Source: Dysgonomonas mossii DSM 22836
Lineage (GTDB): Bacteria; Bacteroidota; Bacteroidia; Bacteroidales; Dysgonomonadaceae
Direction: 5' to 3'
NCBI RefSeq assembly: GCF_000213575.1
Contig: NZ_GL892006.1
Coordinates: forward strand, 392,614 to 456,613
DNA: 64,000 nt
Below, one piece after another: positions 39,586-62,857 of the stretch. Position numbers and translations under genes: made by a program. Position 1 is the stretch's first letter. Every line of letters begins with the position of its first letter. Under the pieces are notes generated by a model. It was not told the DNA's origin, did not search any database, and saw only the letters and a list, made by a program, of their open reading frames with translations.

Positions 39586-39625
39586 AGTCTCTCACCTAAA
39601 AAAACCAACCTATATTGAAAAACAA

Positions 39626-41938: not shown

Positions 41939-42116
41939 ATAAAATATTTAAGTTCTACAAATAAACTATTCGTATACATTGTCATCCTGAATTTCACAGT
42001 AAACAATTTCTACTCTAGCGGTAAGGTGTTTTCTGTTCTCAATAAGACAATATATGTCAAATATACCTCAAAAAACACGATCTCCGAAACAAAGAGTTTA
42101 TAATTCAAACTAAAAA

Positions 42117-44555
42117 TTAACCTAATACTACCTCTATTTTATTCACCGAACCGGCAGGCTGTAGCGGAATAATGTTTCCAGACAAAGCCTTTCCGTTAAC
42201 TGTTATACTTTTTACTCCTCGATTCACTCCTGTATTTTTAATATAGATGAGATAAGTTGCATCTCTAAATTTGCGTGTTACCTCAAAGCCTTTCCAATCG
42301 GAAGGGATACAAGGATTTACTTCCAATCCATTATAATCCGGTTTGATACCCAGAATAAATTGGGTGATCGCATAATAATTCCATGCTGCCGTACCGGTTA
42401 ACCAAGAGTTCTTAGCTTCACCCGGTTTGAAGGCATCTTTCCCGGCAATCATCTGAGAATATACATAAGGCTCTACTTTATGCAATTCTGATATTTCTTC
42501 GGTATAAGAAGGGCATATCTTACGGTAATATTCCCATGCATAGTCGCCTCGTCCCAAGATGGTTTCGGCAATCATGATCCAGGGATTATTGTGGCAGAAA
42601 ATACCTGCATTTTCTTTATAGCCGGCAGGATAAGAAGAAATCTCTCCGTATTCGACTACATATTCTGTAAACGCCGGATTATTCAAGACAATACCATTGG
42701 GTGTATCCAGATATTTTTTGACAGAATCCAGCGATTTCTCTACCATACCTTCTTCTAGTCCAACCTTTGCCATCGCACACCAACCTTGCGACTCGATAAA
42801 TATCTTTCCTTCCTTATTTTCATTACTACCGATTTTCTTTCCGTAATAATCATAGGCACGAAGATACCAATCGCCATCCCATCCATGTTTCTTAACGGCT
42901 TCGATCATAGAGTCGATATAACCCTGTGCACGGTCAGCTTCCTGATTATTTCCTATCTGGCGGCAAAGCGTTACATAGTCCTGACCACAAACAATAAACA
43001 GTCCGGCGATCATCAAAGATTCGGCTTTAGATCCTTCCGTTTTGTTTTCAGTCGTCTGGAATGACTCATTCGGATCCCACGAAAAACAATTTAGATTCAA
43101 ACAATCGTTCCAGTCGGCACGCCCGATAAGAGGCAGTAAGTGAGGTCCCAAGTTTTCGATCACGTGATTGAATGAAACAGTCAAGTGGTGAAACAGAGAT
43201 TTCTCTGTTCCCGCCTGATTGTCGAAAGGAACAGCCTCGTCTAATATAGAGAAGTCTCCCGTCTCTTTCAGATAGGCGATTGTTCCGAAAATGAGCCACA
43301 TCGGATCGTCGTTAAAACCACCGCCGATATCATTGTTCCCTCGCTTGGTGAGTGGCTGATACTGGTGATAACAACCGCCATCACTAAACTGTGTAGACGC
43401 AATATCGATGATACGCTGACGGGCACGTGCGGGAATTTGGTGAACGAAACCAACCAAGTCCTGATTGGAATCGCGAAACCCCATGCCTCGCCCGATTCCC
43501 GATTCGAAAAAAGATGCGGAGCGAGAAAAATTAAACGTAACCATACATTGGTATTGGTTCCAAATATTGACCATGCGGTCTAATTTTTCTTCGTTGCTCT
43601 TTAGCACATAGCTGCTTAACAAATTATCCCAATAGGTTTTTAATTCATCAAATGCAGCCTGTACTTTTGCAACCGTATCGAACTTAGCAATAGTCTCCTT
43701 TGCTTTGCTCTTATTGATAACACCTTTCGATTCCCATTTATCCTCGCGGTTTTCGTATTCTACATAACCCAATACGAATATCAGTTCTTTCGTTTCGCCC
43801 GGTTGTAATTCTATTTCGAGGTAATGCGATGCTATAGGCGACCAACCGTGAGCCACAGAGTTGGAAGGCTTTCCCGCCATCACCGCTTGCGGATCACGAA
43901 ACTCATTATACAAACCTATAAATGATTCCCTGTCGGTATCAAACCCTTGTATCGGAGCATTTACGCTATAGTAAGCATAATGGTTTCTACGCTCTTTGTA
44001 TTCTGTTTTATGATAAATGACAGAGTCTTCTATTTCTACTTCTCCTGTAGAGAAATTACGCTGAAAGTTTTCCATGTCGGTAGCAGCATTCCACAAGCAC
44101 CACTCGGCAAAAGAAAATAGTTTGAATCTTTTGGTCTCCGTCGACTTGTTTGTCAACTTCACCTTCTGAACTTCCGCCCATGTCTTCAGCGGTACAAAGA
44201 AAAGTACCTCTGCTTCTATTCCGTTTTTCTCCCCGGTAATGGTCGTATAACTCATTCCGTGGCGGCATTCATATTTATCGAGTTCGGTCTTGCAAGGCTT
44301 CCACCCCGGCGACCAAACAGTTCCGCCATCGTTGATATAAAAATAGCGTCCGCCATTATCCATAGGGACATTATTGTAGCGATAACGAGTAATACGGCGA
44401 AACTTAGCATCTTTATAAAAAGAGTAACCTCCGGCAGTATTTGATATCAAAGAGAAGAAATCTTCATTACCCAGATAGTTGATCCATGGCCATGGCGTCT
44501 GAGGATTTGTAATCACATATTCCCGACGCTGATCGTCAAAATATCCAAACTTCAT
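42117..44555 (-). CDS. Cellobiose phosphorylase (GH94)
   Basis: 812 residues, typical length, no signal peptide, so cytoplasmic. The N-terminus ([33 protein letters not shown]) is strongly cellobiose-phosphorylase-like, with [15 protein letters not shown] and the DWND motif (481-484) that supplies the catalytic Asp, and [17 protein letters not shown] near the end. It splits cellobiose with phosphate to alpha-glucose 1-phosphate and glucose. It lies 16 bp after the epimerase stop in the same operon as the GH130 phosphorylase. Chitobiose or laminaribiose activity is less likely given the match at the N-terminus. Confidence 0.92.
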
Positions 44556-44571
44556 ATTTTAATTTTAAGCA

Positions 44572-45738
44572 TTATTTTAAATCGAAATGTTCTATCATCT
44601 CCATACACATACGTCCATTATGATACGGGCATTTCCAGAACCCTGCCTTATCATCTTTTTGATTGATTGTTCCGTCTTCTTTTCGGCTCCAATACCATTC
44701 GCCATTCTCTTGGTCGACGATCTGATTGCGGATATAATTCCATATCCGTGCAGCTTTTTCTTTATATGCTATGTCTTTAGAGTTTTTGTACGCATACATA
44801 TATCCTACTACAGATTCTGCCTGTACCCACCAATGACGATCGCCATCTATGTGATTCCCATCCTTTTCGTATATCATACTGCCTTCGGCCTGCAAACCTT
44901 CGGATGCAGCATCTGCTATATCCAATGATATATTTTTTATTTCGGCAAGTAAGTCTCTATCGCCCAATACATCAGCAGCTTCGAACAACAACCATGAAGC
45001 TTCGATATCGTGTCCGTAGGATATGGCTGTAGACTTCACATTCCACTCTTCGTCGAAAAAGAGATTCAGATGGTTTGTTTTCTTATCCAATATACGCTCG
45101 GTGAAAATACCAATCAATCTTTTCTGAGCTGCTTTAAGCTGCTCATTGTCCCACACCCGCCACAGATTGGTATATGGTTCCAAAACGTGCAAATGTGTAT
45201 TCATTGTTTTCTTTTCATTGGCATCCTTATCACTCAGGCGCATATCTTCGATAGGCTTCCAATCCTGAGTATAGGCTTCGAGATAGCCGCCCAATTTATC
45301 ATCATGACATTTCTCTATCAGATAGAAGAATTCTTTTGCCAATTCAAGAGCCTGCTTGTTTCCTGTTGCGCGATAAAACTCCGAGAAACCGTATAGCATA
45401 AACCCTTGCACATAGGTTTGTTTTTTTGTACTTACAGGATTTCCTTTATAATCGAGCTCCCAATATACTCCGCCGTATTCCCTATCAAGAAAATATGCAG
45501 TAATATAATCGAAAGCCCGTTGAGCCATATCGAGGTATTCCTTCTTCTTCAATATGCGGTATGCAGAAGAGAAAGTCCATAGGATACGGGCATTTAGTAT
45601 AGCACCCTTATTTGCTTCGGAGTGCAGTGCATTGTTTCCGTCTATCTGGCCGTAAAATCCTCCATGCTCTGTATCCTGCATCTTATCGATCCAGAAAGCC
45701 AATATATTATTCTCCAGTTCGTTTTTGAAACCGTTCAT
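44572..45738 (-). CDS. Cellobiose 2-epimerase
   Basis: 388 residues, no signal peptide. An N-acylglucosamine 2-epimerase-like (alpha/alpha)6 barrel. Catalytic residues known from this family are in place: Arg51 in LNARILWTF, His243 and Glu246 in YGHDIEASW, His373 in KCPYHNGRMCMEM. It epimerises the reducing-end sugar of beta-1,4-disaccharides, such as mannobiose to mannosylglucose or glucosylmannose to cellobiose. It lies between the transporter (3 bp gap) and the GH94 gene, which fits the known mannan pathway. Confidence 0.94.
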   Translation of the reverse strand: MNGFKNELENNILAFWIDKMQDTEHGGFYGQIDGNNALHSEANKGAILNARILWTFSSAYRILKKKEYLDMAQRAFDYITAYFLDREYGGVYWELDYKGNPVSTKKQTYVQGFMLYGFSEFYRATGNKQALELAKEFFYLIEKCHDDKLGGYLEAYTQDWKPIEDMRLSDKDANEKKTMNTHLHVLEPYTNLWRVWDNEQLKAAQKRLIGIFTERILDKKTNHLNLFFDEEWNVKSTAISYGHDIEASWLLFEAADVLGDRDLLAEIKNISLDIADAASEGLQAEGSMIYEKDGNHIDGDRHWWVQAESVVGYMYAYKNSKDIAYKEKAARIWNYIRNQIVDQENGEWYWSRKEDGTINQKDDKAGFWKCPYHNGRMCMEMIEHFDLK

Positions 45739-45741
45739 AGA

Positions 45742-47172
45742 TCAATCTTTTTGGGCACGTTTAGCATCCAGTTCGGCAGTTATTTCTTTTACTTTCTTTT
45801 CAGAAAGGGGATAAGCCATCATTCCAAGGAAAGCAATAATACAACAAATAGCAGGAAGGATACTTATCATAAGTCGCTCTCCAAAGATCGTTTCCATACT
45901 TTGCTGAGCAATATGCGGATTGTATTTGAATATGGATAAAATCCATCCGGTAAGAGCTGCACCTAATGCCCAGCCTAATTTTTGGGACATAGAAGACGAT
46001 GAGAAAATCAGCCCTGAAGCACGACGGTTCGTTTTCAGTTCCTGATAATCTACAATATCAGCAAACATGCTCCAAAGAAGAGGTAGAACATAACCTGCAC
46101 AAAGAGAGATTAATGTTTGTAACAATAATATCCAGCCTAACTCATTAGGTATAAAATAGAACACTACACTTAACACTGCGGCTCCCGCCATCGCTAACAT
46201 ATATGTTCTTTTCTTTCCGTATTTAGAAGATAAGACAGGAGCTAGAATAACACCTACAAGATTGGCCGCCTGACCAACAAGGAAGTAAATAGTAGTCATG
46301 TCCCAACCTGTAACCGGCATTCTGTATGCAAACTGTACGTAGTCTCTGAAATAGTAGATAGCGACCCCATCACGAACTGCATTAAACAACAAAGCAGCAA
46401 GCCCTGTACCTACCAATATCCACCAAGGCGCATTATGAAACAGATTTTTTAAATCCTGCTTTACAGAAGTATTTTCATCTTCATTAACAGGTTCTACACG
46501 TTCGCGCGTCCATCTGAAACAAAAGATGAACAGAATAGTACATAACACCCCTATAGAAGCTACAGCTAACGTCCAACCAATAGGAGATGTACTTACAGAT
46601 GTTTCAGTTACCGCTTTTGTAACATCCACAGCCGCTTCACCCTCCAGACTAGCAAACATATCAACCAACGGCTGCAACAACATAAAGGTTATAAAGCTAC
46701 CAATGAAAGCAAAAGACATACGGTACGAAGAAAGGATATTCCGTTCTTGCGGATTGGATGACATCACACCTAATAATGAAGCATAAGGCACATTTATCAG
46801 TGAGTATACAATCATCATCAGGGAATAAGTGATATAAGCATAAACGAGTTTCCCTGTTGATCCGAAATCGGGAACAAAGAATGTTATAACTCCCATTACG
46901 GAGAATGGCACAGCAAACCAAAGTAAATATGGGCGATATCTTCCCCAACGGGTCTTAGTACGGTCGGCTGCTATACCAACGAATAAGTCAAATACCGAAT
47001 CCCACAGGCGGGCAACCAGAAACATAGTTCCTGCCGCTGCTGCTGTTATACCAAAAACATCTGTGTAAAAGAACAAGGAGTACATGCCGAATATCTTCCA
47101 AAACATGGAAGAAGCCATATCTCCAAATCCGTAGCCGATTTTCTCTTTTAAAGTAACTGTTGTTGTTTTCAT
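45742..47172 (-). CDS. MFS/GPH-type disaccharide symporter
   Basis: 476 residues with about 12 membrane segments. The start LKEKIGYGFGDMASSMFWKIFGMYSLFFYTDVFGI and FVGIAADRTKTRWGRYRPYLLW are typical of the glycoside-pentoside-hexuronide:cation symporter family; YVLPLLWSMFADIVDYQELKTNRRASGLIFSSSSMSQKLGWALG closes it. It should carry mannobiose, cellobiose or mixed disaccharides across the inner membrane. It sits 143 bp after the GH130 gene and 3 bp before the epimerase. Confidence 0.92.
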   Translation of the reverse strand: MKTTTVTLKEKIGYGFGDMASSMFWKIFGMYSLFFYTDVFGITAAAAGTMFLVARLWDSVFDLFVGIAADRTKTRWGRYRPYLLWFAVPFSVMGVITFFVPDFGSTGKLVYAYITYSLMMIVYSLINVPYASLLGVMSSNPQERNILSSYRMSFAFIGSFITFMLLQPLVDMFASLEGEAAVDVTKAVTETSVSTSPIGWTLAVASIGVLCTILFIFCFRWTRERVEPVNEDENTSVKQDLKNLFHNAPWWILVGTGLAALLFNAVRDGVAIYYFRDYVQFAYRMPVTGWDMTTIYFLVGQAANLVGVILAPVLSSKYGKKRTYMLAMAGAAVLSVVFYFIPNELGWILLLQTLISLCAGYVLPLLWSMFADIVDYQELKTNRRASGLIFSSSSMSQKLGWALGAALTGWILSIFKYNPHIAQQSMETIFGERLMISILPAICCIIAFLGMMAYPLSEKKVKEITAELDAKRAQKD

Positions 47173-47223
47173 GGTGGATAATAGGTTGTCTCAAAAGTAA
47201 AAACACTATATCAGAGTGTTATC

Positions 47224-47280
47224 CTCTTTGTCACGCCGGACAAGTCGGAAGTCCTCCATTACATCCGGCATGACAAAGAG
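47224..47280. other. 17-bp imperfect hairpin between GH130 and transporter genes
   Basis: 47224-47240 (CTCTTTGTCACGCCGGA) pairs with 47264-47280 with one mismatch, loop 23 nt. There is no T-run. Its layout resembles the hairpin at 989-1062. It may be a dispersed repeat or an mRNA element between the two genes. Confidence 0.5.
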
Positions 47281-47314
47281 ATAGTGAAAAATACCCTCAA
47301 AACATTTAGTATTA

Positions 47315-48487
47315 TTATTTTAATTCTAGATTTTTCTTAATCAAGGCCGACAATGTCTGCACCGATGTAGCCGAACGATAACCGTCAGGCGCTGTATTGA
47401 AACAATAATCAACCAAGCGATCTACAGAAGATACAGCCACATGCATACGTGTGTCGCATGAAGCATAATACAGATATACCGTACCATCGTCATCAGCTAT
47501 CCAGCCATTCGTAAACAATACATTAGACACGTCTCCTACCCTTTCTTCATCCATCGGAGCCATTAAGTGTCCTGCAGGTTCTGCTATCAACTTATCGGGT
47601 TGCTCCAAGTCTGTCATGTAAAGATACAATACATATCTTAATCCCGCAGCACAGGCACGCACTCCATGTGCAAGGTGAAGCCAGCCTTTTGATGTTTTTA
47701 TAGGATGTGGCCCTTCTCCATTTTTGAGTTCCTTGATGGTATGATAGTAACGAAAATTGATTATCTTTTCTTCTTTTACCTCTGCATTGGTAATATCATC
47801 TATCAGTGCCCAACCAATTCCACCACCACTACCGGCATCAATAAATCCGTCTTGAGGGCGTGTATAAAGTGCATATTTTCCGTTTACAAATTCGGGATGT
47901 AAAACAACATTACGCTGTTGACTCTTTGTTTTCAGATCAGGCAAACGCTCCCAATTGATCAGATCTTTTGTACGCGCAATACCTGCTGCAGCTACAGCTG
48001 AAGACAAATCTCCGGCTGGCACTTTCGGGTCTTTCCTTTCGGAACAGAACACACCATAGACCCAACCATCTTGGTGAGCAGTAAGGCGCATGTCGTAAAC
48101 GTTTGTGTCGGGGTTGTCAGTCTCGGGCATTACAATAGGATAATCCCAAAAACGGAAATTATCTATGCCATTGGGACTTTCGGCTATTGCAAAGAACGAT
48201 TTACGATCATTACCTTCTACACGTACAGCCATTATATATTTTCCATTCCACTTGATTGCTCCTGCATTGAATGTTCCGTTTATCCCGAAACGTTCCATAA
48301 AATAAGGATTGGTTTGGGGATTGAGATCATAACGCCAAAAGACAGGTGCATGACCGGCTGTTAATACAGGATTCTTATATCGTTCGAAAATACCATTTCC
48401 CGGTAATATTGGTTCATTTTTTAATGTAACTAAATTCTCATATTCAGCTGTAACAGCGTTAAGACGGGTATTGAAAATATTGCTCAT
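47315..48487 (-). CDS. 4-O-beta-D-mannosyl-D-glucose phosphorylase (GH130)
   Basis: 390 residues from the ATG at 48487; a GTG one codon earlier is possible. No signal peptide. The five-bladed propeller has [23 protein letters not shown], then the catalytic Asp132 in [12 protein letters not shown] and [22 protein letters not shown], and ends [25 protein letters not shown]. It cleaves mannosyl-beta-1,4-glucose with phosphate to mannose 1-phosphate and glucose, using the product of the epimerase. GH130 subgroup 1 is indicated by the surrounding genes and close match; mannobiose phosphorylase is the alternative. Confidence 0.93.
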
Positions 48488-48556
48488 CACTTGATTTTTA
48501 AGGGGTTCAACCTGATTAAGTTTATTAGAATTACTTTATAATTTGTGTTTTAGCTT

Positions 48557-49852
48557 CTATTTAGTATTTAACTTATCTGCATATTCTTTTATTAATTTGA
48601 TTGTTGAATCTGTATCAAACACAGAGTTCAAACCTTGCTCTTCTTGCGCCGGATCTCCTACATAGTCGTCCCACGGTTTCCAGAATTCATGAGTCGGACG
48701 TCCCAGTCCACCCCATGCCCAGAAATTACACCCTGCAATATTCCCTTTTTCCTTAGAAGCTGTTACTACGTGTTTAAAGATATTGGCATAGTATTTATCA
48801 CGGGCTGTAACAGGGTCATCCAGAGTATATTTATGATTATCGCGAGGAAAGCCAAATTCTTCGATTGTCATCGGCTTATTCAGTTTTTTTGCCACAGCCA
48901 GATGCTCAGAGATATATTTATCTGTTCTCACGATTGCCGTATCTACCGATTCTTTAATCTTGGTTATATCAATCCAACTCCAGTTTTTAGGCCAGATATG
49001 TATTGTCAGATAATCAACATTCGGATCTGCATGTATCTCTTCATAAAGAGTCATATCTCCTTCCGAACCCATAAGGCCTTCGTTTCCTATAGAAATCAGA
49101 TGATTAGAGTCTAGGGAACGTATCAATGCTGTTGTTTCTTTGAGCCATTTCTTAAAAGCAGGCTTACCTTCGTCACTAAACACACGCGGCTCGTTTCCCA
49201 CCTGCCACGACATAAGGGCTGTATCTTCTGCATATTTTTTCCCTGTATATTTATTTGTACGAGAAACAACATGCTTTACATGATTGAGAAACATTGTATG
49301 GCAACTGTCGCAATCGGCATATTGTGCCACATGCTTAACAAATACAGGCCAGTCATAAACTCCTTTTTCGGGAACATTTCCTTTTCCTGACCATTCGAGA
49401 TACTGACCATAACCGCCACTCCATTCCCAGCTATTATTGAGATAGAGAACAGCATGCATATTGCGTTTGCCCAGCTCTGCCATGAAGAAGTCTAGTCCAT
49501 CGAAGATAGTATCGTTGTATACCCCGGGTGCTGTTTGCAACGTTGGCCTCACTTTTACTGCTTGTCCGGCAACACCATCTGCCCCCACCAGTACACGTAA
49601 GTTATTGATGCCATTTTCTTTCATGAAGTCGAGTTCTTTCAACAAGCGTTCACGATTCCCGCCTTCTCCTGTAGAGCCTAATATTGCGCCATACCAGTAG
49701 TTTGTACCAATAAAATAATACGGATTGTCGCCTATTACAAAGTGACCATCTTTTTGTTTTACAAAAGCAGATTCCGACATGGTTGTACTTTTCTTACTGT
49801 TACAAGAAAAAAGACTTAGAACTGTGATCGTAAAAAGAATTAGTTTCTTCAT
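48557..49852 (-). CDS. GH5_7-type endo-beta-1,4-mannanase, lipoprotein
   Basis: 431 residues with a lipoprotein signal (MKKLILFTITVLSLFSCNS). The barrel shows YYFIGTNYWYGAILGS, acid/base Glu221 in MSWQVGNEPR, HIWPKNWSW and nucleophile Glu332 in MTIEEFGFPRDNH; these fit GH5 subfamily 7 mannanases. It probably cuts polymer or long oligosaccharides at the membrane surface. The CE7 esterase stop lies 2 bp upstream, so the two are translated together; GH130 follows after 69 bp. Confidence 0.92.
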   Translation of the reverse strand: MKKLILFTITVLSLFSCNSKKSTTMSESAFVKQKDGHFVIGDNPYYFIGTNYWYGAILGSTGEGGNRERLLKELDFMKENGINNLRVLVGADGVAGQAVKVRPTLQTAPGVYNDTIFDGLDFFMAELGKRNMHAVLYLNNSWEWSGGYGQYLEWSGKGNVPEKGVYDWPVFVKHVAQYADCDSCHTMFLNHVKHVVSRTNKYTGKKYAEDTALMSWQVGNEPRVFSDEGKPAFKKWLKETTALIRSLDSNHLISIGNEGLMGSEGDMTLYEEIHADPNVDYLTIHIWPKNWSWIDITKIKESVDTAIVRTDKYISEHLAVAKKLNKPMTIEEFGFPRDNHKYTLDDPVTARDKYYANIFKHVVTASKEKGNIAGCNFWAWGGLGRPTHEFWKPWDDYVGDPAQEEQGLNSVFDTDSTIKLIKEYADKLNTK

Positions 49853-49854: not shown

Positions 49855-51624
49855 TTATTTTATGTTTAATTTTTCTTTGATAAACGCTTTCGAAGCATCA
49901 TTATACTCTTTACCAACACTGTGGGCAAACTCAGGGAATGCCATCCAACGTTTTTCAGATTTTACCTGATTGTAAGCCGCAAAATTTATGTGTGGCGGAC
50001 AAACATTATCCTGAACTCCAATTCCCATGATAAGAGGACAGTCAATCCATTGAGTCAAATTCTTGATATCAAAATAAGTAAGAAGTGAATAAATATCTTC
50101 CCATTTAGCCTCAGGATGCGTTTTCATATAATTATCAAAATCACTTTTAGGCCAAGGGGCTATTTTGAAATAATCTGGATAATCGGATAAGAAAGGAATA
50201 CTGGGTGCTGCTACTTTTACGCGTTTGTCGAGGGCCGCAGCCACAAATGAAAGTGCTCCACCTTGGCTACCACCTCTTACAGCAATCTTTTCCGCATCTA
50301 CTTCTGGTCGGCTGCAAACAAAATCAAGTGCCCTGACTACATCCAAAAATGCCCCACGATAATAGTAATTATCTTTATTGTCGAGCCCGTATGTAATCCA
50401 TGTTCCAAAACGATTTGTAGGTTGATTCAATGCTTGCCCCCTGATCGATAAAACAAAGTATGCAAATCCATCCCACCACTGATTTGGCGGATAAGGTTGT
50501 GAGCCATAGCCCATATACTCTACAATTACGGGATGCTTGCCTTCTCTCTTAGGCTTGGCATAATATCCCCTTATCAGCTCATTACCAAAAGAGCGCATCT
50601 CAACCAAATAAACATCGTAATCTATCTTCGAATATTCGGGAACGAGTGTCAATTTATAGTCCGGAGCAACTTTTGCAAGCCCTTTCAAGTTCTTATCCCA
50701 GAATGCTTTGAAATCATCTTTTGCATCGAGAGGCGAGTGAATCTTTTCGGGTTCGAAGCCAATATTAAACTTTTTCTCACAGGCTATTGTGGCGTTGCGG
50801 CGAAACTGAACGGTATATCTATAAAACCCGGGATTTGGATTATCGAAGCTAAAGGACTTGGATATTGAAGCTTTTCCATCTATTTCTATATTCATAGAGT
50901 CAGCCTTTAGCGGTTGATAATCGTCTGTTGTGAGTGTTACGAACAGTTGTCCCTGCACTGCCCATTTGTTCTTATTATCGAGACTTACTTTTATCTGAAC
51001 AGGATTAGGAGCCATAAATATATAGTCGGAATCTGCCACCTGAACATTTAAAGCTAACTTATCTTTTGTTTCAGCAGTAGAAATCGATAGAGCAGCTCCT
51101 TGAAGAAAACCACCGACATTCCAACCATCATGAAACTTAATTGCAATCAGATTTTCTCCTGTGAGATTAATATCTTCTTCGGGAACAAAATAGTTTCGTT
51201 CATTATCAAAGTAGCCTCTATAGTCTTGCGGAAATTCACCCGTTTTACCGACAAGCTTACCATTAAAATAAACCTCATCGGTAGCAGCTAAACGTCCGAG
51301 ATGAAGTATAATTCCACCTTTATTCTTTATGGCATTACCCAAGACATCCGACATCTGTATTCTTTTACGATACCAACCAAAGCCGTTATCCAGTTTGATG
51401 TTTTGATCTTTTAAGGATTTAGATGACAACACTTCTTGCCATGCAGCATCATTGTAGTCTACGTTCATCCAAAGGCTATCGACACCTTCTCCTGCATGGA
51501 ATTTCCAATCGGCAGAAAATGATTCGGAAACAGTGGGGGCGAGATTTTCTTTTACCGCTTGTTTACAGGATAAAACAAGAAAGAAAGTGATTACGGATAA
51601 GAGATATATCGTATATTTTTTCAT
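49855..51624 (-). CDS. CE7 acetyl esterase with N-terminal beta-sandwich domain, lipoprotein
   Basis: 589 residues. A lipoprotein signal (Cys20, FFLVLSCKQ) precedes a GH2-like sugar-binding sandwich (about 35-185: WKFHAGEGVDSLWMNVDYND, GWYRKRIQ, FNGKLVGKTGEFP), a linker sandwich, and the CE7 (AXE1) hydrolase domain from about 295. The triad is Ser453 in RGGSQGGALS, Asp539 in GVQDNVCPP and His568 in EFAHSVGKE. It should remove acetyl groups from mannan or glucomannan before enzyme attack. It opens the second transcription unit of the locus, 39 bp downstream of a full promoter with an operator repeat. Confidence 0.9.
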   Translation of the reverse strand: MKKYTIYLLSVITFFLVLSCKQAVKENLAPTVSESFSADWKFHAGEGVDSLWMNVDYNDAAWQEVLSSKSLKDQNIKLDNGFGWYRKRIQMSDVLGNAIKNKGGIILHLGRLAATDEVYFNGKLVGKTGEFPQDYRGYFDNERNYFVPEEDINLTGENLIAIKFHDGWNVGGFLQGAALSISTAETKDKLALNVQVADSDYIFMAPNPVQIKVSLDNKNKWAVQGQLFVTLTTDDYQPLKADSMNIEIDGKASISKSFSFDNPNPGFYRYTVQFRRNATIACEKKFNIGFEPEKIHSPLDAKDDFKAFWDKNLKGLAKVAPDYKLTLVPEYSKIDYDVYLVEMRSFGNELIRGYYAKPKREGKHPVIVEYMGYGSQPYPPNQWWDGFAYFVLSIRGQALNQPTNRFGTWITYGLDNKDNYYYRGAFLDVVRALDFVCSRPEVDAEKIAVRGGSQGGALSFVAAALDKRVKVAAPSIPFLSDYPDYFKIAPWPKSDFDNYMKTHPEAKWEDIYSLLTYFDIKNLTQWIDCPLIMGIGVQDNVCPPHINFAAYNQVKSEKRWMAFPEFAHSVGKEYNDASKAFIKEKLNIK

Positions 51625-51662: not shown

Positions 51663-51721
51663 CAAATTTATAATTGTCGGCATCTTATTACAAATACTTT
51701 TTTAATCAATTATAATACTTT
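51663..51721 (-). promoter_or_regulatory. Second promoter of the mannan locus with AraC-type direct repeat
   Basis: Minus strand: AAAGTATTA (51721-51713), 14 nt, AGTATTTG (51698-51691), whose TTTG is the -33 box, then 20 nt and TAAATTTG (51670-51663) as the -7 box. The same repeat and spacing occur at the susC promoter. A further single AAAAAAGTATTAT lies near 51829-51841. Confidence 0.75.
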
Positions 51722-51868
51722 TTTTGGCATTTTCCAGTATCTACAAACTAAACACTATTGGCTTATTATACATATAAATAAGAATATTCAACAGACAGTA
51801 TGGAGAATACCGACATCTACACAAAGAATAATACTTTTTTAATCTTTCGTTACAACTCACTGTTCTTT

Positions 51869-52840
51869 TCACTGTAGTGCGGCCTTTACTATTTTACCCC
51901 ATTCTTTCAAATCGGTATCCTTCCAGCCGGTAGCAGGAGATGTAGAATCTTTAATCATCGAACATGTTTCGTTTTTATCTGCGATAGACCATGCAACCCA
52001 ACTTATCTGATGTTGTTTCATCCAGTTCAACCAATTGTTCCATTCTGTTTTGTTTATAGCACCATCACCCGATGCTTCCATTCCTGCACACTCCGACACA
52101 AAAATCGGAAGCCCTTTTCCGATGGCATAATCAGCCCTATCTCGTAAATATTGCTTATGTGTTGCAGCATAGAAGTGTAATGTATACATGATATTATCAT
52201 AGCCTTTGATCGGATTATCTGCAGCCAAATGTATATCTTGATCCCAATGAGGCGTTCCTACCAATATTACATTTTTAGCATCTATCGCTCGAATTGTTTT
52301 AATTATTTCTTCCGAGTATGCTTTTACTGTTTCCCATGAATCTTCTACCGGCTCATTGAATATCTCGTATATTATATTCGGGTAGCCTTTGTATTTATTG
52401 GCAGCTCTGGTAAAGAACTCTTTAGCTTCCTGTGTCTTTATCCCATGACTATGCCAATCTATAATAACATACATTCCGTTTTCGATAGCCGCATCAACAA
52501 CGTTATCGAGGCATTCGTTCGCTTTTTGAGGGTTGGTTAGGTATGCTCCTTCAGGTTCAACTCCGATGGCTGCACGCACCAGATTACAGTTCCAATCTGA
52601 TTTGAGCCATGCTACTGTAGACTTATTATAGAAGCGCGGCCACCAATTATGCCACCCAAAACTTACCCCCTTGAGAGCTATTGTCTTGCCGTCCTTATCT
52701 ACCAATGAAGTACCTTTTACTGAAAGTTGACCATGCCGCTCTACAAAAGTCTGAGCAATTATTTGATCTGCATTGTCTCCGCTACATCCGACAAACAGGA
52801 AAAACAGTAGAATGTAAGCCTTGTAAAAATTCTTAATCAT
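51869..52840 (-). CDS. GH5_2-type endo-beta-1,4-glucanase, lipoprotein
   Basis: 323 residues, lipoprotein signal (LLFFLFVGCSGD, Cys19). VERHGQLSVKGTSLVDKDGKTIALKGVSFGWHNWWPRFY is typical of GH5_2 cellulases; acid/base Glu163 is in YEIFNEP and nucleophile Glu250 in PIFVSECAG. It cuts beta-1,4-glucosyl links, which in this locus would be those in glucomannan. It is the last gene of the first transcription unit (susC to here), 71 bp after the multidomain GH26. Its presence argues for a mixed glucomannan rather than a pure mannan. Confidence 0.93.
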   Translation of the reverse strand: MIKNFYKAYILLFFLFVGCSGDNADQIIAQTFVERHGQLSVKGTSLVDKDGKTIALKGVSFGWHNWWPRFYNKSTVAWLKSDWNCNLVRAAIGVEPEGAYLTNPQKANECLDNVVDAAIENGMYVIIDWHSHGIKTQEAKEFFTRAANKYKGYPNIIYEIFNEPVEDSWETVKAYSEEIIKTIRAIDAKNVILVGTPHWDQDIHLAADNPIKGYDNIMYTLHFYAATHKQYLRDRADYAIGKGLPIFVSECAGMEASGDGAINKTEWNNWLNWMKQHQISWVAWSIADKNETCSMIKDSTSPATGWKDTDLKEWGKIVKAALQ

Positions 52841-52911
52841 AACTCTCTATATTTTGTGAAAAAACTCTCCTTGCCCTAAAACAAGGAGAGAGTTAATATT
52901 CATTCTTTATA

Positions 52912-54570
52912 TTATTTCATGCTCGGAACCTGGTCACGAGTAATCACATAAGTTTGATTCATGGCATCTTTCCACCATTCGTCAGTAGCATGTTTGCTAC
53001 CACTATCAGCTTTTTCATACCATGGCATAAACCACGCCCAGCGAGCTCCCGCAGTCCATTGTTCGGATAGGAGACCAACTGTTCCACATTCGGAAAGTGC
53101 AATAACCTTATGTCCATAGCGAGCAAACTCCGATTGGTATATAGATACACAATCGCTTGTATTCTTATTATATAAATCACGACCAATGATATCTACATAC
53201 TCATCACCCGGATACCAGCTACTATCGTCAGACTCGCTTGTCCACACCCAGATCAGATTGTTTACACCTTGCGATTTGAAATAGTCGAACATGGCAATCC
53301 AAAGTTTTTTGCAAGAACCGGCATCTTTACCCCACCAGAACCAGCCTCCGGCAGCTTCATGGAATGGACGCCAGATCACAGCAATCCCTTCCGATTGCAA
53401 TTGTTTCAATGAAGTAGCCACCTTTGCAAGATCGGCCTTAAAGACTTCATTTTCGCGTGTTCCTTCAACTGTAGCCTTGGCTGCATCGAAGTAAGTATCA
53501 GCTTTGTAAAAAGCATAATCTCCATTTGAATCGGCAGGTATCAGATAAACAGCTGTTACTGTGTAATCATGTCCGCTTATAATGAGACCCGAAGACTTTA
53601 ATTTGGTTAGGATACCATCTGTTATTTTCATCTCATAATAATCGCCGCTGATAGAGAAATATTCGTAACCCTCGGCAATCTGTCCCCAGTCGCTACCTTT
53701 TAGTGAGCCTTGAGCGCCTGATGCCACGTCTTTGATTGCAACACGGATAATGTCGTTAACCTTCGCTGATGCAAACCCCTCAAGAGCTGACGCATCTGTA
53801 AGCTGTACATTGCCCGACCAATCGGAAGGCATAGCTACATTACCATTCCATAACCTAGCCGATACGGGCACATTCCAATGCCACATAATAGAAACCAATC
53901 CACCTGCATCCCACCAGTTTTTTACAGGCGAAATATCACTATAGTCAATCCAGTTGCTAGGAGAATATGGTAAATGCACATAATCGAAAGTATTTAATGC
54001 GGGGTATTTTCCTGTTAGTGCATGAACGGCTTCTGCCTCTTCTACATTCCAGTTTACATTAGCCATCGCACCGGAGATAACTTTTTGTTTATAGCTTTCT
54101 ACCAAAAACTGATACACCTTCTTTGCCTGAGCTGTAGCATTCGGATTACAAAGCGTAGCTGTTATAACAGGATCGGCCTTTGTTGTAAAGCTGATCGTTG
54201 TTTCGGGTGCTTCTTTATAAGTAGGCCCAAGTACAACGCCTGCAGGAACAACTAGTTTGTAAGTTTTTCCTTTTTCCAATCCGGTAGCTTTAATTGTTAC
54301 CTGACTTAACTTGAATGAAACATCCGTTATAGCAGCCCCCTCTAAAGTAATCTTTTCGTGCCCGACTTTAGGGCAGAATATATTTTGATCATAGGTCAGG
54401 ACAATAGTTATGTCAGCTTCAGGCAAATCTGTTGTTCCATCAGCAGGTGTACTACTTGCTAATTGGGGAATGCCCGGATCGCCGATAACCGGATCATCAA
54501 CATCGGAACAGGCAGTCATTAGGATAACCCCCAATAGGATATAAAAAATATTTAGTGCTATTTTTTTCAT
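52912..54570 (-). CDS. Multidomain GH26 mannanase, lipoprotein, with inserted beta-sandwich
   Basis: 552 residues. Lipoprotein signal (LMTACSDV, Cys21), an Ig-like Big_5 domain (about 35-132), then GH26 from about 140. The barrel is interrupted at about 243-346 by a beta-sandwich-like module (WSGNVQLTDASALEGF, SLKGSDWGQIAEGYEYF, YYEMKITDGILTKL) and continues with acid/base Glu405 in WRPFHEAAGGWFWWG and nucleophile Glu494 in ALSECG. The inserted module resembles the C-terminal domain of the neighbouring IPT/TIG lipoprotein. It is probably on the cell surface, where the first cuts of the polymer are made. Confidence 0.92.
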   Translation of the reverse strand: MKKIALNIFYILLGVILMTACSDVDDPVIGDPGIPQLASSTPADGTTDLPEADITIVLTYDQNIFCPKVGHEKITLEGAAITDVSFKLSQVTIKATGLEKGKTYKLVVPAGVVLGPTYKEAPETTISFTTKADPVITATLCNPNATAQAKKVYQFLVESYKQKVISGAMANVNWNVEEAEAVHALTGKYPALNTFDYVHLPYSPSNWIDYSDISPVKNWWDAGGLVSIMWHWNVPVSARLWNGNVAMPSDWSGNVQLTDASALEGFASAKVNDIIRVAIKDVASGAQGSLKGSDWGQIAEGYEYFSISGDYYEMKITDGILTKLKSSGLIISGHDYTVTAVYLIPADSNGDYAFYKADTYFDAAKATVEGTRENEVFKADLAKVATSLKQLQSEGIAVIWRPFHEAAGGWFWWGKDAGSCKKLWIAMFDYFKSQGVNNLIWVWTSESDDSSWYPGDEYVDIIGRDLYNKNTSDCVSIYQSEFARYGHKVIALSECGTVGLLSEQWTAGARWAWFMPWYEKADSGSKHATDEWWKDAMNQTYVITRDQVPSMK

Positions 54571-54636
54571 AATATATCTTTTTGTAAAGAGCTTGCCTAA
54601 TGTAAATTCAGATTAGGCAAGCCTTTATTTATAATA

Positions 54637-56574
54637 TTACCGACCAGTTATAATAGAAACCTTAGAAATTACAAGATGCTCTCCTTGAATAATAATTGCT
54701 GTAGTTGACCAACCATCGTTAGCCCCTAATATATTGTCAAGGAATGGTTGAGTTAATTCCATCTCATAATATGTTAAACTTGTATCAGTAAACACCGGTG
54801 TATCCCACGTTGCCCAGTTTGCATTATTAATCTGCAACTGTCCATATCCAGTAACTGTAAAATAGAATTTAAGAATTGCTCCGGCTTTTATTCCATCAAA
54901 AGATTCCTTATACAGACGGAACGCACCTCCAGCACCTTCACCCGCCCAAGATCCAAGGTCACGAGTTTCATTCATTATCACAGTTTCTACTATTCCCGAA
55001 GAGATAATACGTATTGTATAAGTCACTTCCCCATTAGATGATATCAGCTTAAACGCTGTATTTCCATTAGCATTAGTTGGAACAAGTATGCTGAGGGTGG
55101 ACCCCTGTAAGATATACTGTGTATTATTTCCGTTCACTTGAACATTGGTCAGTTTATCTCCATTCTGAACATCTACTTTCAAAATAGTACCTGACTTAAT
55201 TTCTTCATCAGAACCTGGAAGAACAGGAATATAACAGAAGTCTGGTTTAGTCACTGTCAAAACCGAGCCCTTTACAGTCTCTCCATTTTTCATTGTTAAT
55301 GTCAGTTCTCCAGTCTCTGCATCTACCGGGGCTTTTACCACCAAGTCTGTGGAAGATGCGGGAGTAACTTCTACAACTTTGTTCCCTCCGAATGTTACAG
55401 ATGCTACAAGATCAAGATTCTTACCTTTTATTGTGAATTCATTACCGGCAGCTACAGAAGATGGATTGTATGACAATATCTCCGGTTTTAGTGTAGTAAT
55501 TTTTACTGACACAGTTTTTCCACTAGCTGTATTTAGGATAAGATCTCCTGTTTTAGCATTAGCCGGAGTAGTTACTTTTATCTCCGTAGCACTCTTTGAT
55601 GTAGGCGTTACAGCCTCTGATACACCCGGAAATAACGCTGTAGTAACCAAATCCATATTTACACCTTTGATAGAAATCTCGCTCCCATCTTTTATACCTG
55701 TAGCAGGAGTAGCCACCAAATCCGTTGGCACAGCGACACCTATATTGGCTATAGCTACATGCACACCCGAGTAGGCAACCATCACTACAGCGCCATCGGT
55801 GATACCTTCAGGCAGAGTAAATGCCAATACATTATCTTTTATAGCATGAGCGGCAGGCGTTCCATTAGGAAGCTGTACAGACTCTACCAGATCAAGATCC
55901 TGGCCTATTGTAGAGACTACATCTCCCGGTTTTTTATTGGTAAGATCCAATACCTTTTCTACAGAAGGAAGAACTACTTGCAATTCTGTCTCTGATTTCA
56001 GTTCTACCGGAATAGCCGCTGTATCAGCCAAAATAATAATTCCGGTCTGTGCTTCGCGAGGGACAACAACTTCAATCTTTTTACGCTCCCATGTCAAGAA
56101 ATCTTTATAAGAAACTTCCACATTATCAGAAAACACTACTTTCTGAATCAAATTCAGATAATCACCTTCTATTGTAAGTGTCTGACCTGCCTTTACAGGA
56201 GACGGTGCAAACCTGGTAATAGAAATAGGCTCTGTATATGTTAGCAATGTTTTAGTCGTAACTTCTGTACCTGAAGCAACAAGTTTAACATAGCCTTCTT
56301 TAGCATCCTGAGGAATGGTAATCTTTATTTTTTCTTTACTTACCACTTCTATATCAGTAACCTCAATACCTTCGGGAAGGATTACACTTGTTACTTTATC
56401 AAGATTTTTCCCGATAAAGGTCAGCTCGCTACCACGTAGAGCCGGACTTGGGCCAAAGGCTTCAAGGACTACAGCACCCGAGCCATTATCATCATCGTTA
56501 CTACAACTCGACACGCATGCTAAAGCTGTAATAATAAGACATAAAGAACAATATTTTAATATATTTATTTTCAT
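54637..56574 (-). CDS. Surface glycan-binding lipoprotein with tandem IPT/TIG domains
   Basis: 645 residues, lipoprotein signal with Cys24 (ALACVSSCSNDDDN). About six IPT/TIG-like repeats of 75-85 residues (GPSPALRGSELTFIGKNLDKV, APSPVKAGQTLTIEGDYLNL, KKPGDVVSTIGQDLDLV, PATGIKDGSEISIKGVNMDLV, PSSVAAGNEFTIKGKNLDLV and a weaker sixth) are followed by a C-terminal module (about 525-645) with SWAGEGAGGAFRLY and YYEMELTQPFLDNIL. It takes the SusE position: a long stalk carrying a glycan-binding head on the outer membrane. The gene lies 12 bp after the next SGBP gene. Confidence 0.85.
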   Translation of the reverse strand: MKINILKYCSLCLIITALACVSSCSNDDDNGSGAVVLEAFGPSPALRGSELTFIGKNLDKVTSVILPEGIEVTDIEVVSKEKIKITIPQDAKEGYVKLVASGTEVTTKTLLTYTEPISITRFAPSPVKAGQTLTIEGDYLNLIQKVVFSDNVEVSYKDFLTWERKKIEVVVPREAQTGIIILADTAAIPVELKSETELQVVLPSVEKVLDLTNKKPGDVVSTIGQDLDLVESVQLPNGTPAAHAIKDNVLAFTLPEGITDGAVVMVAYSGVHVAIANIGVAVPTDLVATPATGIKDGSEISIKGVNMDLVTTALFPGVSEAVTPTSKSATEIKVTTPANAKTGDLILNTASGKTVSVKITTLKPEILSYNPSSVAAGNEFTIKGKNLDLVASVTFGGNKVVEVTPASSTDLVVKAPVDAETGELTLTMKNGETVKGSVLTVTKPDFCYIPVLPGSDEEIKSGTILKVDVQNGDKLTNVQVNGNNTQYILQGSTLSILVPTNANGNTAFKLISSNGEVTYTIRIISSGIVETVIMNETRDLGSWAGEGAGGAFRLYKESFDGIKAGAILKFYFTVTGYGQLQINNANWATWDTPVFTDTSLTYYEMELTQPFLDNILGANDGWSTTAIIIQGEHLVISKVSIITGR

Positions 56575-56586
56575 AATAATACAGAC

Positions 56587-57792
56587 TTATTTATATTTTA
56601 CAATACGCACATTGTCAATCCATAGCTTCACATTCGATTCACCATCAGCCGGACCAAAGAACATAGCATGAAGATCAACCAAATCACTAAGTTTTGTTAT
56701 AGCACGTTTATCATCTGATTCATCTTTGCTGTATTTAAAATCTGTCAATGGAATGGTTATTGTAACCCATCCGTCAGTTACATAGTTTGATTTAACACCA
56801 TTATTCAAATACGGTTTCCAATGAGCTTGAGCCTGATTTCCATCTACATCATGAGTATCTACCAAGTTCGAAAACCATAATAACAATGGAACATCATGCC
56901 ATTCATGAGAATATACTTCAAAACGAAGTGCCAAATCCGCAATCTCACTTTGCCCTTCGGGTACAATTGATTGGCGAACAGGATTATTATAATAAATCTG
57001 CAAGGCATTAGCAGGCCAAGCCCAAGAGGCTAGCTGACCTTCTAGAACAAGATATCGGTCGGAAGGACCTCCACCATTACCAAAAGCACTCAAGCCCCAA
57101 GTGTTCCAGCTTGTATCTTCATTATCCATAAGAATGTGTGTTGTTGACGTTTGCTTGTTATTATCTCTGAAACAGAATAAAGAACGAGCTGGACCATACA
57201 CAGATTCTATAGCTAAAGGCCCCGGTTTTGCTCCAACAGGAACTCTAACGGAAATGTTATTCATATCAGAACTAATAATCTCCGCTTCAAAACCTCCTTC
57301 AAAAGTAACTTTCAATGGACTATTTTCCTCATTGATAAAATACAAGCCCTGAATTTGTGCAATGTCTCCATCTTTAACATATTCACAAGTCATAGTTTTA
57401 GCTATAGGAGTAGGAACTTTTGTTTCGAAAGTATAATAGCAAGAGTCATTATTTGTATATAATTTAATCAAATCTTGCTTTTCGCTCGGAATACCTGATG
57501 GTATATTGACAATGATAGCATTATCTGTCACAAAATTCGGGTTTAACTTCGCTTTCTGATCATTAAAGTAAATCTTATTAACTTTCGACAAGTTTTCCCC
57601 AATAATAGCAATCTGAGTACCCAAATATCCACTTGTCAATAAAGAGTCTGAAACAGTAGCGTCGCATGGACGTATGTATCTGACTACCGGAGTACCTCCC
57701 CCCGAGCCACCTTTATCATCATCATCCGAGCACGAATTAAATGAGACAAGAGCAAGTAATACAATAGCTATATTTAAAATATATTTTTTCAT
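56587..57792 (-). CDS. Surface glycan-binding lipoprotein (SGBP-B-like) with IPT/TIG domain
   Basis: 401 residues, lipoprotein signal (LLALVSFNSCSDDDDKGG). IPT/TIG-like domains come first (VRYIRPCDATVSDSLLTSGYLGTQIAIIGENLSKV; then IAQIQGLYFIN). From about 195 a C-terminal beta-sandwich follows (HILMDNEDTSWNTWGLS, DLALRFEVYSHEWHDVPLLLWFSN, WVTITIPLTDF, VKLWIDNVRIVKYK), as in SGBP-B proteins that bind polysaccharide. Its aromatic residues are probable binding-site residues. The gene directly follows susD (20 bp). Confidence 0.86.
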   Translation of the reverse strand: MKKYILNIAIVLLALVSFNSCSDDDDKGGSGGGTPVVRYIRPCDATVSDSLLTSGYLGTQIAIIGENLSKVNKIYFNDQKAKLNPNFVTDNAIIVNIPSGIPSEKQDLIKLYTNNDSCYYTFETKVPTPIAKTMTCEYVKDGDIAQIQGLYFINEENSPLKVTFEGGFEAEIISSDMNNISVRVPVGAKPGPLAIESVYGPARSLFCFRDNNKQTSTTHILMDNEDTSWNTWGLSAFGNGGGPSDRYLVLEGQLASWAWPANALQIYYNNPVRQSIVPEGQSEIADLALRFEVYSHEWHDVPLLLWFSNLVDTHDVDGNQAQAHWKPYLNNGVKSNYVTDGWVTITIPLTDFKYSKDESDDKRAITKLSDLVDLHAMFFGPADGESNVKLWIDNVRIVKYK

Positions 57793-57812
57793 AATCTAGT
57801 CTTACTTAAAAG

Positions 57813-59507
57813 TTAAAATGCATAATCAACAGGTTCCTGGGTTATACTTGGTGTTTTTGTTACAGTTTCGGCAGGAACAGGCAACACAAGATTTTTTTCT
57901 GTAATAGTTATAGTTCCTACATTTTTATCAAGATAAAATATAGAGCCTTTACCTGACGAATCATCACTCGGATCTATAGAAGTAAATCCTCCATGATGCG
58001 CATTGCTGGCATTCCGTTCTTGCCATGTATAACTACCATTAGAAATATATTGACGTTCACGCTTCATTCCGTTCAAATAAGAAAGAGCCTTAGTTATATC
58101 CCTGTAGCTCATCCTTTTGATATCAAGGTAATTGATACCTTCAAGAGCGAATTCGAGACGACGTTCTTTGATCAACTGATCGTAAGTAATAGAAGTGGCT
58201 TTTGTAGAAAATCCGGCACGTTCACGTACCTTATCATATACGGTCAATGCCAAAGCGTCAGTAGTAGATGTACCCGAGCCGATACATGCCTCAACATAAC
58301 ACAGATATACATCTGCCAAACGGAGTAAATAAATATTATTACCTGCATCCTGATTGGATGTTCCTGCAACTCCGTCACAATCGGAATTAGCTCCGATTAC
58401 ATATTTCCTTACATGTGCCAACATACCATTTGATGTTTCGGTAGACTCATCTTGCGAAAAATTATGATAAGTATATCCACCGCCACCCAGATTTGAGTAG
58501 CTGTCTCCGTTGCGCATGTATGTATAATAACGGCGGGCATCATTCGAATCAAAAGCTTCTTGCAAGCTAAGAGTCGGGCCCTTACCTGCACCCCATGATG
58601 AACCAAGGGTAATGAGTGCATTACGTGATAAAGAGACATTACGTCCGTTACCGTATCCATAACCATCGTTTGTACACTGAATTGCAAACAAAGACTCTGA
58701 AGAGTTATTTCCTTTTGGATAAAACATGGTAGAAAGGTCTGAATATAATTTCAATCCACTATCATTAATTACCTCAGCTGCATAAGATTTAGCTTTAGCA
58801 AAATTATCGGATGATGATGCATCAGAAAGGTGAGAAGCCATCGTTAGATGAAGCTTTGCCAACATACCGATAGCGGTATATTTAGAGCATCTACCAGTCT
58901 GAAATGGAGTTGAAGGAAGATTATCTTTAGCAAATTCGAGATCCTGACGGATAAACTCGTAAACGCTTGCTTGTTTGTGACGAATCACCTGACCTCCGGA
59001 GATATTATTATTTGTAATAATCGGAACATCCTGCCAATACTCCGTTAACCAATAATAAGCAATACCACGAATACAACGAGCCTCGCCAAGAGCACGGTTT
59101 ATTACCGTTTCGGAAACACCATTAGATCTTGCTGCGGCAGGCATACCATTGATAATGTTATTACAGTACGAAACTACACGGTAAAGTCCATTCCAGCCCT
59201 GCGTAAGGAAAGAATTCCCATTCTGAAAAGTCATATAATAGAATTGACCTTCCTGATCGTACGTATAATAAAGGTCTCCGGCAAGCTCATCTCCTGCCAT
59301 CCACATAAAATTCATTCCAAAGTCTTGCCATACGAACGCAGCATATAGAGAAGCAGAGTTGGCATTAACGGCAGACTCTGATGTGTAATATGTCTCCAGC
59401 ACCTGCTCTGACTCAGGAACTATAGTCAAGAAATCATTACAAGATGTAGCACCCAGAATAATGGATGAAAGACAAATTGATTTGATTATATTTTTAATAT
59501 TCTTCAT
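57813..59507 (-). CDS. SusD/RagB-family nutrient-binding lipoprotein
   Basis: 564 residues from the ATG at 59507, which places the lipoprotein signal at the start (MKNIKNIIKSICLSSIILGATSC); an ATG 12 codons earlier is less likely. SusD features are DFLTIVPESEQVLETYYTSESAVNANSASLYAAF, EARCIRGIAYYWLTEYWQDVPII, LRLADVYLCYVEACIGSG, YDQLIKERRLEFALEGINYLDIKR and a C-terminal YLDKNVGTITITEKNLVLPVPA. It is the lid over the SusC channel. It begins 16 bp after the SusC stop codon. Confidence 0.95.
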   Translation of the reverse strand: MKNIKNIIKSICLSSIILGATSCNDFLTIVPESEQVLETYYTSESAVNANSASLYAAFVWQDFGMNFMWMAGDELAGDLYYTYDQEGQFYYMTFQNGNSFLTQGWNGLYRVVSYCNNIINGMPAAARSNGVSETVINRALGEARCIRGIAYYWLTEYWQDVPIITNNNISGGQVIRHKQASVYEFIRQDLEFAKDNLPSTPFQTGRCSKYTAIGMLAKLHLTMASHLSDASSSDNFAKAKSYAAEVINDSGLKLYSDLSTMFYPKGNNSSESLFAIQCTNDGYGYGNGRNVSLSRNALITLGSSWGAGKGPTLSLQEAFDSNDARRYYTYMRNGDSYSNLGGGGYTYHNFSQDESTETSNGMLAHVRKYVIGANSDCDGVAGTSNQDAGNNIYLLRLADVYLCYVEACIGSGTSTTDALALTVYDKVRERAGFSTKATSITYDQLIKERRLEFALEGINYLDIKRMSYRDITKALSYLNGMKRERQYISNGSYTWQERNASNAHHGGFTSIDPSDDSSGKGSIFYLDKNVGTITITEKNLVLPVPAETVTKTPSITQEPVDYAF

Positions 59508-59523
59508 GTTTTTATCTTTAAAA

Positions 59524-62784: not shown

Positions 62785-62843
62785 CAAATGTATTTATGAT
62801 AATAAAATATAACAAATACTATATTATCACATAGTAATACTTT
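62785..62843 (-). promoter_or_regulatory. susC promoter with AraC-type direct repeat
   Basis: Minus strand: AAAGTATTA (62843-62835), 14 nt, AGTATTTG (62820-62813) whose TTTG is the -33 box, 20 nt, then TACATTTG (62792-62785) as -7 box, 81 nt before the susC ATG. The half-sites are 21 bp apart, two helical turns, as usual for AraC-family activators. Confidence 0.8.
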
Positions 62844-62857
62844 ATTATCAAAAACAA

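Follow-up and report, generated by a model that had tools for sequence, protein, structure and literature searches.

Tandem half-sites at two promoters of a probable beta-mannan locus of Dysgonomonas mossii as a candidate operator of its AraC-type regulator

Results

Gene content of the locus

The window analyzed in this study, a stretch of 64,000 bp from the genome of Dysgonomonas mossii DSM 22836, contains a gene cluster on the minus strand that starts with the gene for an AraC-type regulator, followed by genes for a SusC-like TonB-dependent receptor, SusD, an SGBP-B-like protein, a TIG-domain protein, GH26 and GH5 enzymes, and an AXE1/CE7 esterase (Table 1). Downstream of the esterase gene, the same strand continues with genes for GH5, GH130, an MFS transporter, a 2-epimerase, GH94, GH3, and two GH26 enzymes. 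Judged from this gene content, the substrate is a plant polysaccharide, probably beta-mannan. A preliminary description of the sequence had named the gene in front of the esterase GH5_2; Pfam gives a match to Cellulase, and the subfamily name remains that of the earlier description. Compared with G015, the closest relative, the SGBP-B-like surface glycan-binding gene (56587-57792) shows just 53% identity, as opposed to 93 to 100% for the other locus genes; this points to local replacement of the gene or to fast divergence of the protein that binds the glycan.

Table 1. Genes, candidate operators, and promoter elements of the locus
Feature	Position	Strand	Basis or remark
AraC-type regulator, 292 aa, proposed binder of the sites	63035-63913	-	Pfam HTH_18, HTH_AraC; model and fold search
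Inverted third tandem site, one strong and one weak half-site, by the regulator stop codon	62999-63033	+	Matrix
Candidate susC operator	62815-62849	-	Distal half-site 62836-62849, proximal 62815-62828; 21-bp period
-33 TTTG, susC promoter	62813-62816	-	Supplied by AGTATTTG, overlaps proximal half-site
-7 element TACATTTG, susC promoter	62785-62792	-	20 nt after -33 TTTG
susC-like TonB-dependent receptor gene, first of unit 1	59524-62703	-	ORF list and Pfam
Rest of unit 1: susD, SGBP-B-like, TIG-domain, GH26 genes	52912-59543	-	ORFs and Pfam
Terminator-like hairpin and T tract, between GH26 and GH5	52865-52890	-	-15.7 kcal/mol, z -4.46
GH5 gene (Pfam Cellulase), between hairpin and CE7 promoter	51869-52840	-	ORFs and Pfam
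Extra single half-site ATTAAAAAAGTATT	51830-51843	-	116 bp upstream of CE7 operator, same orientation
Candidate CE7 esterase operator	51693-51727	-	Distal half-site 51714-51727, proximal 51693-51706
-33 TTTG, CE7 promoter	51691-51694	-	Supplied by AGTATTTG
-7 element TAAATTTG, CE7 promoter	51663-51670	-	20 nt after -33 TTTG
CE7-type esterase gene (Pfam AXE1), first of unit 2	49855-51624	-	ORFs and Pfam
Rest of unit 2: GH5, GH130, MFS transporter, 2-epimerase, GH94, GH3, two GH26 genes	37090-49852	-	ORFs and Pfam
Terminator-like hairpin after last GH26	37037-37064	-	9 such matches in region, 9.9 expected from shuffles

The locus had been proposed to consist of two units, one from susC to the GH5_2 gene and one from the esterase gene to the last GH26 gene. 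The two separate promoters described below speak for this division. The end of the first unit is uncertain, as the terminator-like hairpin between the GH26 and GH5 genes implies that unit 1 may end at GH26 or depend on read-through. It is also possible that this hairpin serves as an attenuator or transcript stabilizer. A similar inverted repeat with a T run is present in G018 (L034), its stem differing in sequence.

Domains and predicted fold of the regulator

When the 16 genes of the locus were scanned with Pfam, the regulator gave matches to HTH_18 (8.3e-22) and HTH_AraC (3.9e-11), and its N-terminal half gave no Pfam hit. Profile hits in the PDB covered the DNA-binding half only and included XylR, AraC, RamA, SoxS, and MarA. 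In an AlphaFold model with a mean pLDDT of 85.2 and a pTM of 0.69, the DNA-binding half matched AraC-type domains (6swi, rmsd 1.4; AraC 2k9s, rmsd 2.3) and the sensor half matched RhaR (5u93, E value 1.8e-4, rmsd 3.5) and AraC (2arc, E value 4.9e-4, rmsd 4.3). Comparison with full-length AraC-family proteins yielded TM values of just 0.34 to 0.39, which we ascribe, from rmsd values above 10, to the domains being turned differently. A C-terminal domain with two HTH motifs and, as predicted by the model, an N-terminal sensor fold of the AraC/RhaR type are the features of the AraC/XylS family. Hybrid two-component system (HTCS) regulators are long membrane proteins with a histidine kinase and a receiver, neither of which was found in the 292 residues, where HTH families were the only ones identified; the regulator is not an HTCS. 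A paralogue with 42% identity is encoded elsewhere in the genome. Autoregulation through a site in the regulator's own promoter was considered and discarded, since no site with a score of at least 12 was found upstream of the regulator gene in L068.

Two exact copies of a tandem element

The sequence AAAGTATTA-N14-AGTATTTG occurs in two exact copies in the window, at 51691-51721 and 62813-62843, both on the minus strand, and was found in none of 100 dinucleotide shuffles of the window. The complete genome of 3.95 Mb contains no third copy, and a reversed control pattern matched once. When AGTATT-N9-TAA-N3-AGTATTTG-N20-TAnnTTTG was searched with 3 mismatches in its 23 fixed positions, no further site was obtained in the genome, and the reversed control gave none. 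The operator-only pattern with 3 mismatches again yielded just the two sites, but here the reversed control gave three, showing that the promoter part matters for the specificity of that search. Three matches to AGTATT-N15-AGTATTTG at 2 mismatches, compared to 1.35 expected, are not unusual; the strength of the case lies in the exact copies and the relatives, not in the stripped-down pattern. A collection of plasmids contained no match to the operator. The proposed search of the rest of the genome has ended with two sites only, both in the mannan-type locus, and the direct regulon in D. mossii appears to comprise just the susC and esterase promoters.

The element had been introduced as the same 21-bp direct repeat at two promoters, with a spacer of 14 bp. 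Both copies are exact and share this spacer; 21 bp is the period rather than the repeat unit, which is a half-site of 14 bp, and the spacer hides a second GATAA. Written as half-sites, the susC operator corresponds to GATAATAAAGTATT-N7-GATAATATAGTATT (matrix score 42.9, the highest in the window, and conserved in relatives) and the CE7 esterase operator to CCAAAAAAAGTATT-N7-ATTAAAAAAGTATT, a weaker copy (score 30.3) with counterparts in L033, L034, and L037. These scores derive from a matrix of 24 sites of the own family and are not independent for the window and its near relatives. Both operator regions are very AT-rich. Between the two promoters, the 20-nt spacers are identical at just 8 of 20 positions, so the promoters do not look like a recent duplication.

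That the second half-site holds the -33 TTTG and that TAnnTTTG follows 20 nt further was exactly true for both copies. TTTG at -33 and TAnnTTTG at -7 represent the consensus of Bacteroidota primary-sigma promoters as quoted in an excerpt of PMC7366714. On the coding strand of the locus (37090-63913), TTTG-N18-23-TAnnTTTG has three exact matches, namely, the susC promoter, the CE7 promoter, and 43911-43943, which is located inside the GH94 gene; the first two are the only exact matches on this strand outside coding sequence. None of the seven other -33/-7 matches in the window is accompanied by an operator site with a score of at least 12.

Half-site consensus in related genomes

In an alignment of relatives, the operator block was conserved while the flanks had diverged. 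To obtain distinct sites, those with at least 90% identity over 97 bp were collapsed to one, which left 51 sites, including three (L179, L183, L185) from the order sample that are devoid of GATAA and may be due to chance. In columns outside the search pattern, A was found at +19 in 51 of 51 sites and at -2 in 50, A or T at -1 and +20 in all 51, and G at +13 in 47. In the outer half-site, whose GATAA is absent from the search pattern, G occurred at -8 in 29 of 51 sites and A at -4 in 40 of 51. From the near-fixed unsearched columns and the G and A of the outer copy, we infer that the unit is GATAAnAWAGTATT, present twice at a distance of 21 bp. Eight Sphingobacterium loci (L113-L119, L121) have kept AGTATT but not the TG of TTTG, which suggests that the -33 TTTG should be assigned to the promoter and not to the operator. 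In relatives, the full element consists of two GATAAnAWAGTATT half-sites at a distance of 21 bp, the inner one reaching into the -33 TTTG, which is followed after 20 nt by TAnnTTTG.

Two half-sites in the same direction with a period of 21 bp, the inner one lying over the -33/-35 region, are the arrangement of AraC-type tandem operators. The araI1 and araI2 sites of Escherichia coli are likewise spaced by 21 bp, and the 21-bp period fits AraC-type sites.

Distribution of the element and linkage to the regulator

A search of 101 genomes of the family at 2 mismatches yielded 30 places in 23 genomes and none with the reversed pattern. In a sample of 295 genomes of the order, 12 places in 10 genomes were found at 2 mismatches, and the reversed control matched in 2 genomes. 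With regulator positions taken as rounded midpoints, a regulator orthologue was located no more than 15 kb away from 24 of the 30 family sites; the remaining six are G018:C98, two in G020, and one each in G066, G084, and G085, the last two at 27 kb. A regulator of at least 45% identity is encoded in 22 of the 23 site-bearing genomes, compared to 53 of 101 overall (Fisher P of 7e-7, related species not being independent), and the single exception is the incomplete genome G020. Inheritance of the locus as a unit could also account for this co-occurrence. Using tblastn with 16 window proteins, 28 of the 30 family places were located upstream of locus-type genes. The other two precede a protein with a sub-threshold GH43 hit (L070) and, by about 570 bp, a DUF4925 protein (L075).

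No site at 2 mismatches was present in 31 of the 53 regulator-bearing family genomes. A relaxed matrix recovered sites in the regulator-bearing loci L040, L043, L044, L051, and L063, and also in L059, but there with TACTTTTA in place of TAnnTTTG. This matrix found no site in L042, L045, L046, L047, L064, and L065 (contig end), nor in L049, which is from another family. In G012 (L066, 10945-12104) the regulator gene is cut and continues into the middle of susD, and in G016 (L067, 9319-9952) it is in pieces with several stops. Sites with a score of at least 12 were sought in these two stretches and not found; since the susC region of G012 is also lost, this says little and was not used further.

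The gap between the GH5 and CE7 genes exceeds 100 bp in G000, G015, G018, and G009, and all four carry an operator site there. According to tblastn, the two genes are about 15 to 36 bp apart in G024, G029, and G012, with no site between them. The CE7 gene of G009 is a short remnant (L037, 7172-7393; residues 17 to 91 by tblastn), the operator and promoter being kept.

Transfer beyond the family was assessed with a matrix of 35 operator columns from 24 own-family sites, run on 80 named loci with regulator orthologues, which ranked highest among at least 580 relatives. Of these, 22 were sorted as own family and 58 as outside, including L140 and L154, for which no family is named. The 58 outside loci contained 47 sites with a score of at least 12, of which 37, in 28 loci, were in phase with TAnnTTTG; the reversed control gave 5 sites and five shuffles gave 0 to 1, none of them in phase. 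An in-phase site was present in 16 of the 22 own-family loci and in none of the reversed control. At a stricter threshold set by the best reversed score (19.1), 39 of the 80 loci passed, 38 of them in phase. The genes downstream of the sites encode SusC, GH130, GH5, CE7, GH26, GH3, or MFS proteins, and some sites lack a window-protein match. Upstream of GH130 genes, three or four half-sites in tandem were seen in Dysgonomonas sp. 520 (L108, ~1359-1492) and Coprobacter secundus (L111, ~14063-14148). No in-phase site was found in 30 of the 58 outside loci, which include Paludibacter, Puia, and B. fragilis loci; in the six Paludibacter loci, the regulator is placed after the enzyme genes. Some siteless loci are truncated, and elsewhere a different sequence may serve the regulator.

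Additional sites in the window and in relatives

The inverted tandem site at the regulator stop codon had a score of 18.4, compared to a 95th percentile of 7.3 and a maximum of 19.2 in 200 shuffles. With the own-family matrix it reached 20.6 and was the third and last site of the window with a score of at least 12. It has no in-phase TAnnTTTG. The copy of AAAGTATTA at 63026-63034 had been taken for a lone chance occurrence and was re-read as half of this weak site. The corresponding scores in relatives were 22.7 (G015), 14.6 (G018), and 35.1 (G024, period 22); G009 has no tandem inverted site, only a half-site of 9.8. The distance to the susC operator is 182 to 184 bp in four related genomes, two of which (G000 and G015) are near-identical. 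Shuffles of four regions gave 95th percentiles of 7.3 to 9.9 and maxima of 19.2, 13.8, 16.9, and 12.8; the inverted copies of the window and G018 alone are therefore not decisive. A back-to-back pair of operators is found at divergent genes in G019 and G021 (L102 and L103), and the inverted site may be what is left of such a pair.

The single half-site upstream of the CE7 operator has counterparts in L033, L034, and L037, at 102 bp in G018 and 45 bp in G009, and in G013 a same-direction half-site lies 90 bp from the GH5-side site. In a survey of all 51 distinct sites, extra half-sites in the same orientation accompanied 8 operators, those in opposite orientation 6, and tandem ones 7, compared to shuffle means of 0.35, 0.20, and 0.05. 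The survey of inverted sites covered 11 chosen intergenic regions, and the matrix used for both surveys includes the sites being described. A common helical phase of the extra half-sites was considered and dropped: 116 bp corresponds to roughly 11 turns, whereas distances of 102, 90, and 45 bp each leave a fraction of a turn.

Discussion

Proposed mechanism

The repeats are very probably tandem operators of the AraC-type regulator, which would act by class II activation upon inducer binding. Their description as a candidate operator of this protein finds strong comparative support in the uniqueness in the genome, the co-occurrence with the regulator, the phasing at outside loci, the regulator domains, and the 21-bp period. 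Each regulator monomer would engage a 14-bp half-site through both of its HTH motifs, with GATAA in one major groove and AGTATT about one turn on, and a dimer would occupy two half-sites on the same DNA face, 21 bp apart. As the inner half-site overlaps the -33 element, the regulator could contact RNA polymerase as a class II activator, with TAnnTTTG at a fixed phase downstream of the operator. A manno-oligosaccharide recognized by the N-terminal domain is the presumed inducer, and its binding would start transcription of susC and the esterase gene together. Binding mode, activation, inducer, and start sites are inferred; activation rather than repression is suggested by a single feature, the position of the operator.

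Alternative explanations

Compatible with the operator reading is the idea that the regulator also represses in the absence of inducer, by AraC-like looping via extra sites, which we consider rather unlikely. The inverted site, the extra half-site, and the enrichment of such sites over shuffles point to it. Against it, 11 of the 14 cases of extra half-sites fall into g6 or the genus group of the window (g1), the same-orientation distances vary (29, 45, 68, 90, 102, 107, 116, and 117 bp) with no common helical phase, and the inverted copies of G000 and G018 are weak, with no tandem form found in G009. The more specific idea of a multi-site loop, in which 62999-63033 and 51830-51843 act like araO2 and keep both promoters off until manno-oligosaccharide is sensed, is equally tentative. 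Among the papers listed on AraC and polysaccharide utilization in Bacteroides, none showed the term DNA looping.

It is improbable that the sites belong to another regulator, such as an unlinked HTCS. HTCS motifs in Bacteroides take the form of direct repeats spaced by 21 bp on average, according to an excerpt of PMC3878776, but the AraC-type protein was the sole regulator identified in the Pfam scan of 16 locus genes, 24 of the 30 family sites are at most 15 kb away from an orthologue of the linked regulator, and sites are also adjacent to it in Sphingobacterium loci. Still less credible is an extended element of AT-rich Bacteroidota promoters in place of an operator. The overlap with -33 and the fixed phase with TAnnTTTG would agree with it, but such an element should not be confined to two genome places at up to 3 mismatches and to 10 of 295 order genomes at 2 mismatches (2 for the reversed control), nor be missing, at scores of at least 12, from the seven other -33/-7 matches in the window. 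Finally, chance similarity of two AT-rich promoters, which the preliminary description had already called unlikely, is practically negligible in view of 0 of 100 shuffles, the empty reversed control in 101 family genomes, the conservation above diverged flanks, the 51-site columns, and the outside-locus test.

Implications and comparison with known systems

The tandem operator reading provides a rule for sequence searches, namely, two copies of GATAAnAWAGTATT with a period of 21 bp and 20 to 21 nt from the TTTG position to TAnnTTTG. This rule finds promoters of mannan-type loci in Dysgonomonas, Proteiniphilum, Bacteroides, Coprobacter, and Sphingobacterium, would tie them to one cytoplasmic regulator, and predicts the regulon, the transcription starts, and the key bases of an inducible promoter. 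The architecture as such is known from AraC and HTCS motifs; the operator sequence was not found described within the literature searched, which mostly excluded subscription papers, nor in the excerpts of PMC12704710 and PMC12125979.

AraC of E. coli, a sugar-responsive regulator, binds as a dimer to two proximal sites, recruits RNA polymerase directly, and has a distal looping site, as outlined in part of PMC4760080. The system described here resembles the araI1-araI2/araO2 arrangement in its two proximal sites and, by predicted fold, in its sensor and DNA-binding halves. It differs in the operator sequence and in the Bacteroidota promoter TTTG/TAnnTTTG, which replaces the sigma-70 type. In B. 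thetaiotaomicron, three alpha-mannan motifs of HTCS regulators consist of two 16-bp sites with a 5-bp spacer, according to an excerpt of Ravcheev et al. 2013 (PMC3878776). Compared by description, these operators are also direct repeats in regulated promoters with a mean of 21 bp, whereas the HTCS are membrane-bound hybrid two-component proteins and the regulator studied here is a one-component protein of 292 residues at a beta-mannan-type locus.

Another comparable system is the locus that is reportedly induced by beta-mannans in B. cellulosilyticus DSM 14838. When growth on beta-mannans was set against growth on glucose, 14 of the top 40 most abundant proteins of this strain came from one locus, which encodes CE7, SusC/SusD-like proteins, GH130_1, GH5_2, GH3, GH26A, GH26B, and a transcriptional protein, for which the accessible part of the paper names no operator (PMC13276840). 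From strain and gene content, we take L156 to be this locus; it shows the gene row regulator, CE7, a match to the window GH5 gene at 48557-49852, GH5, and susC. With its related regulator, it carries the in-phase operator before the same two genes as in D. mossii, CE7 (13.3, weak) and susC (21.9).
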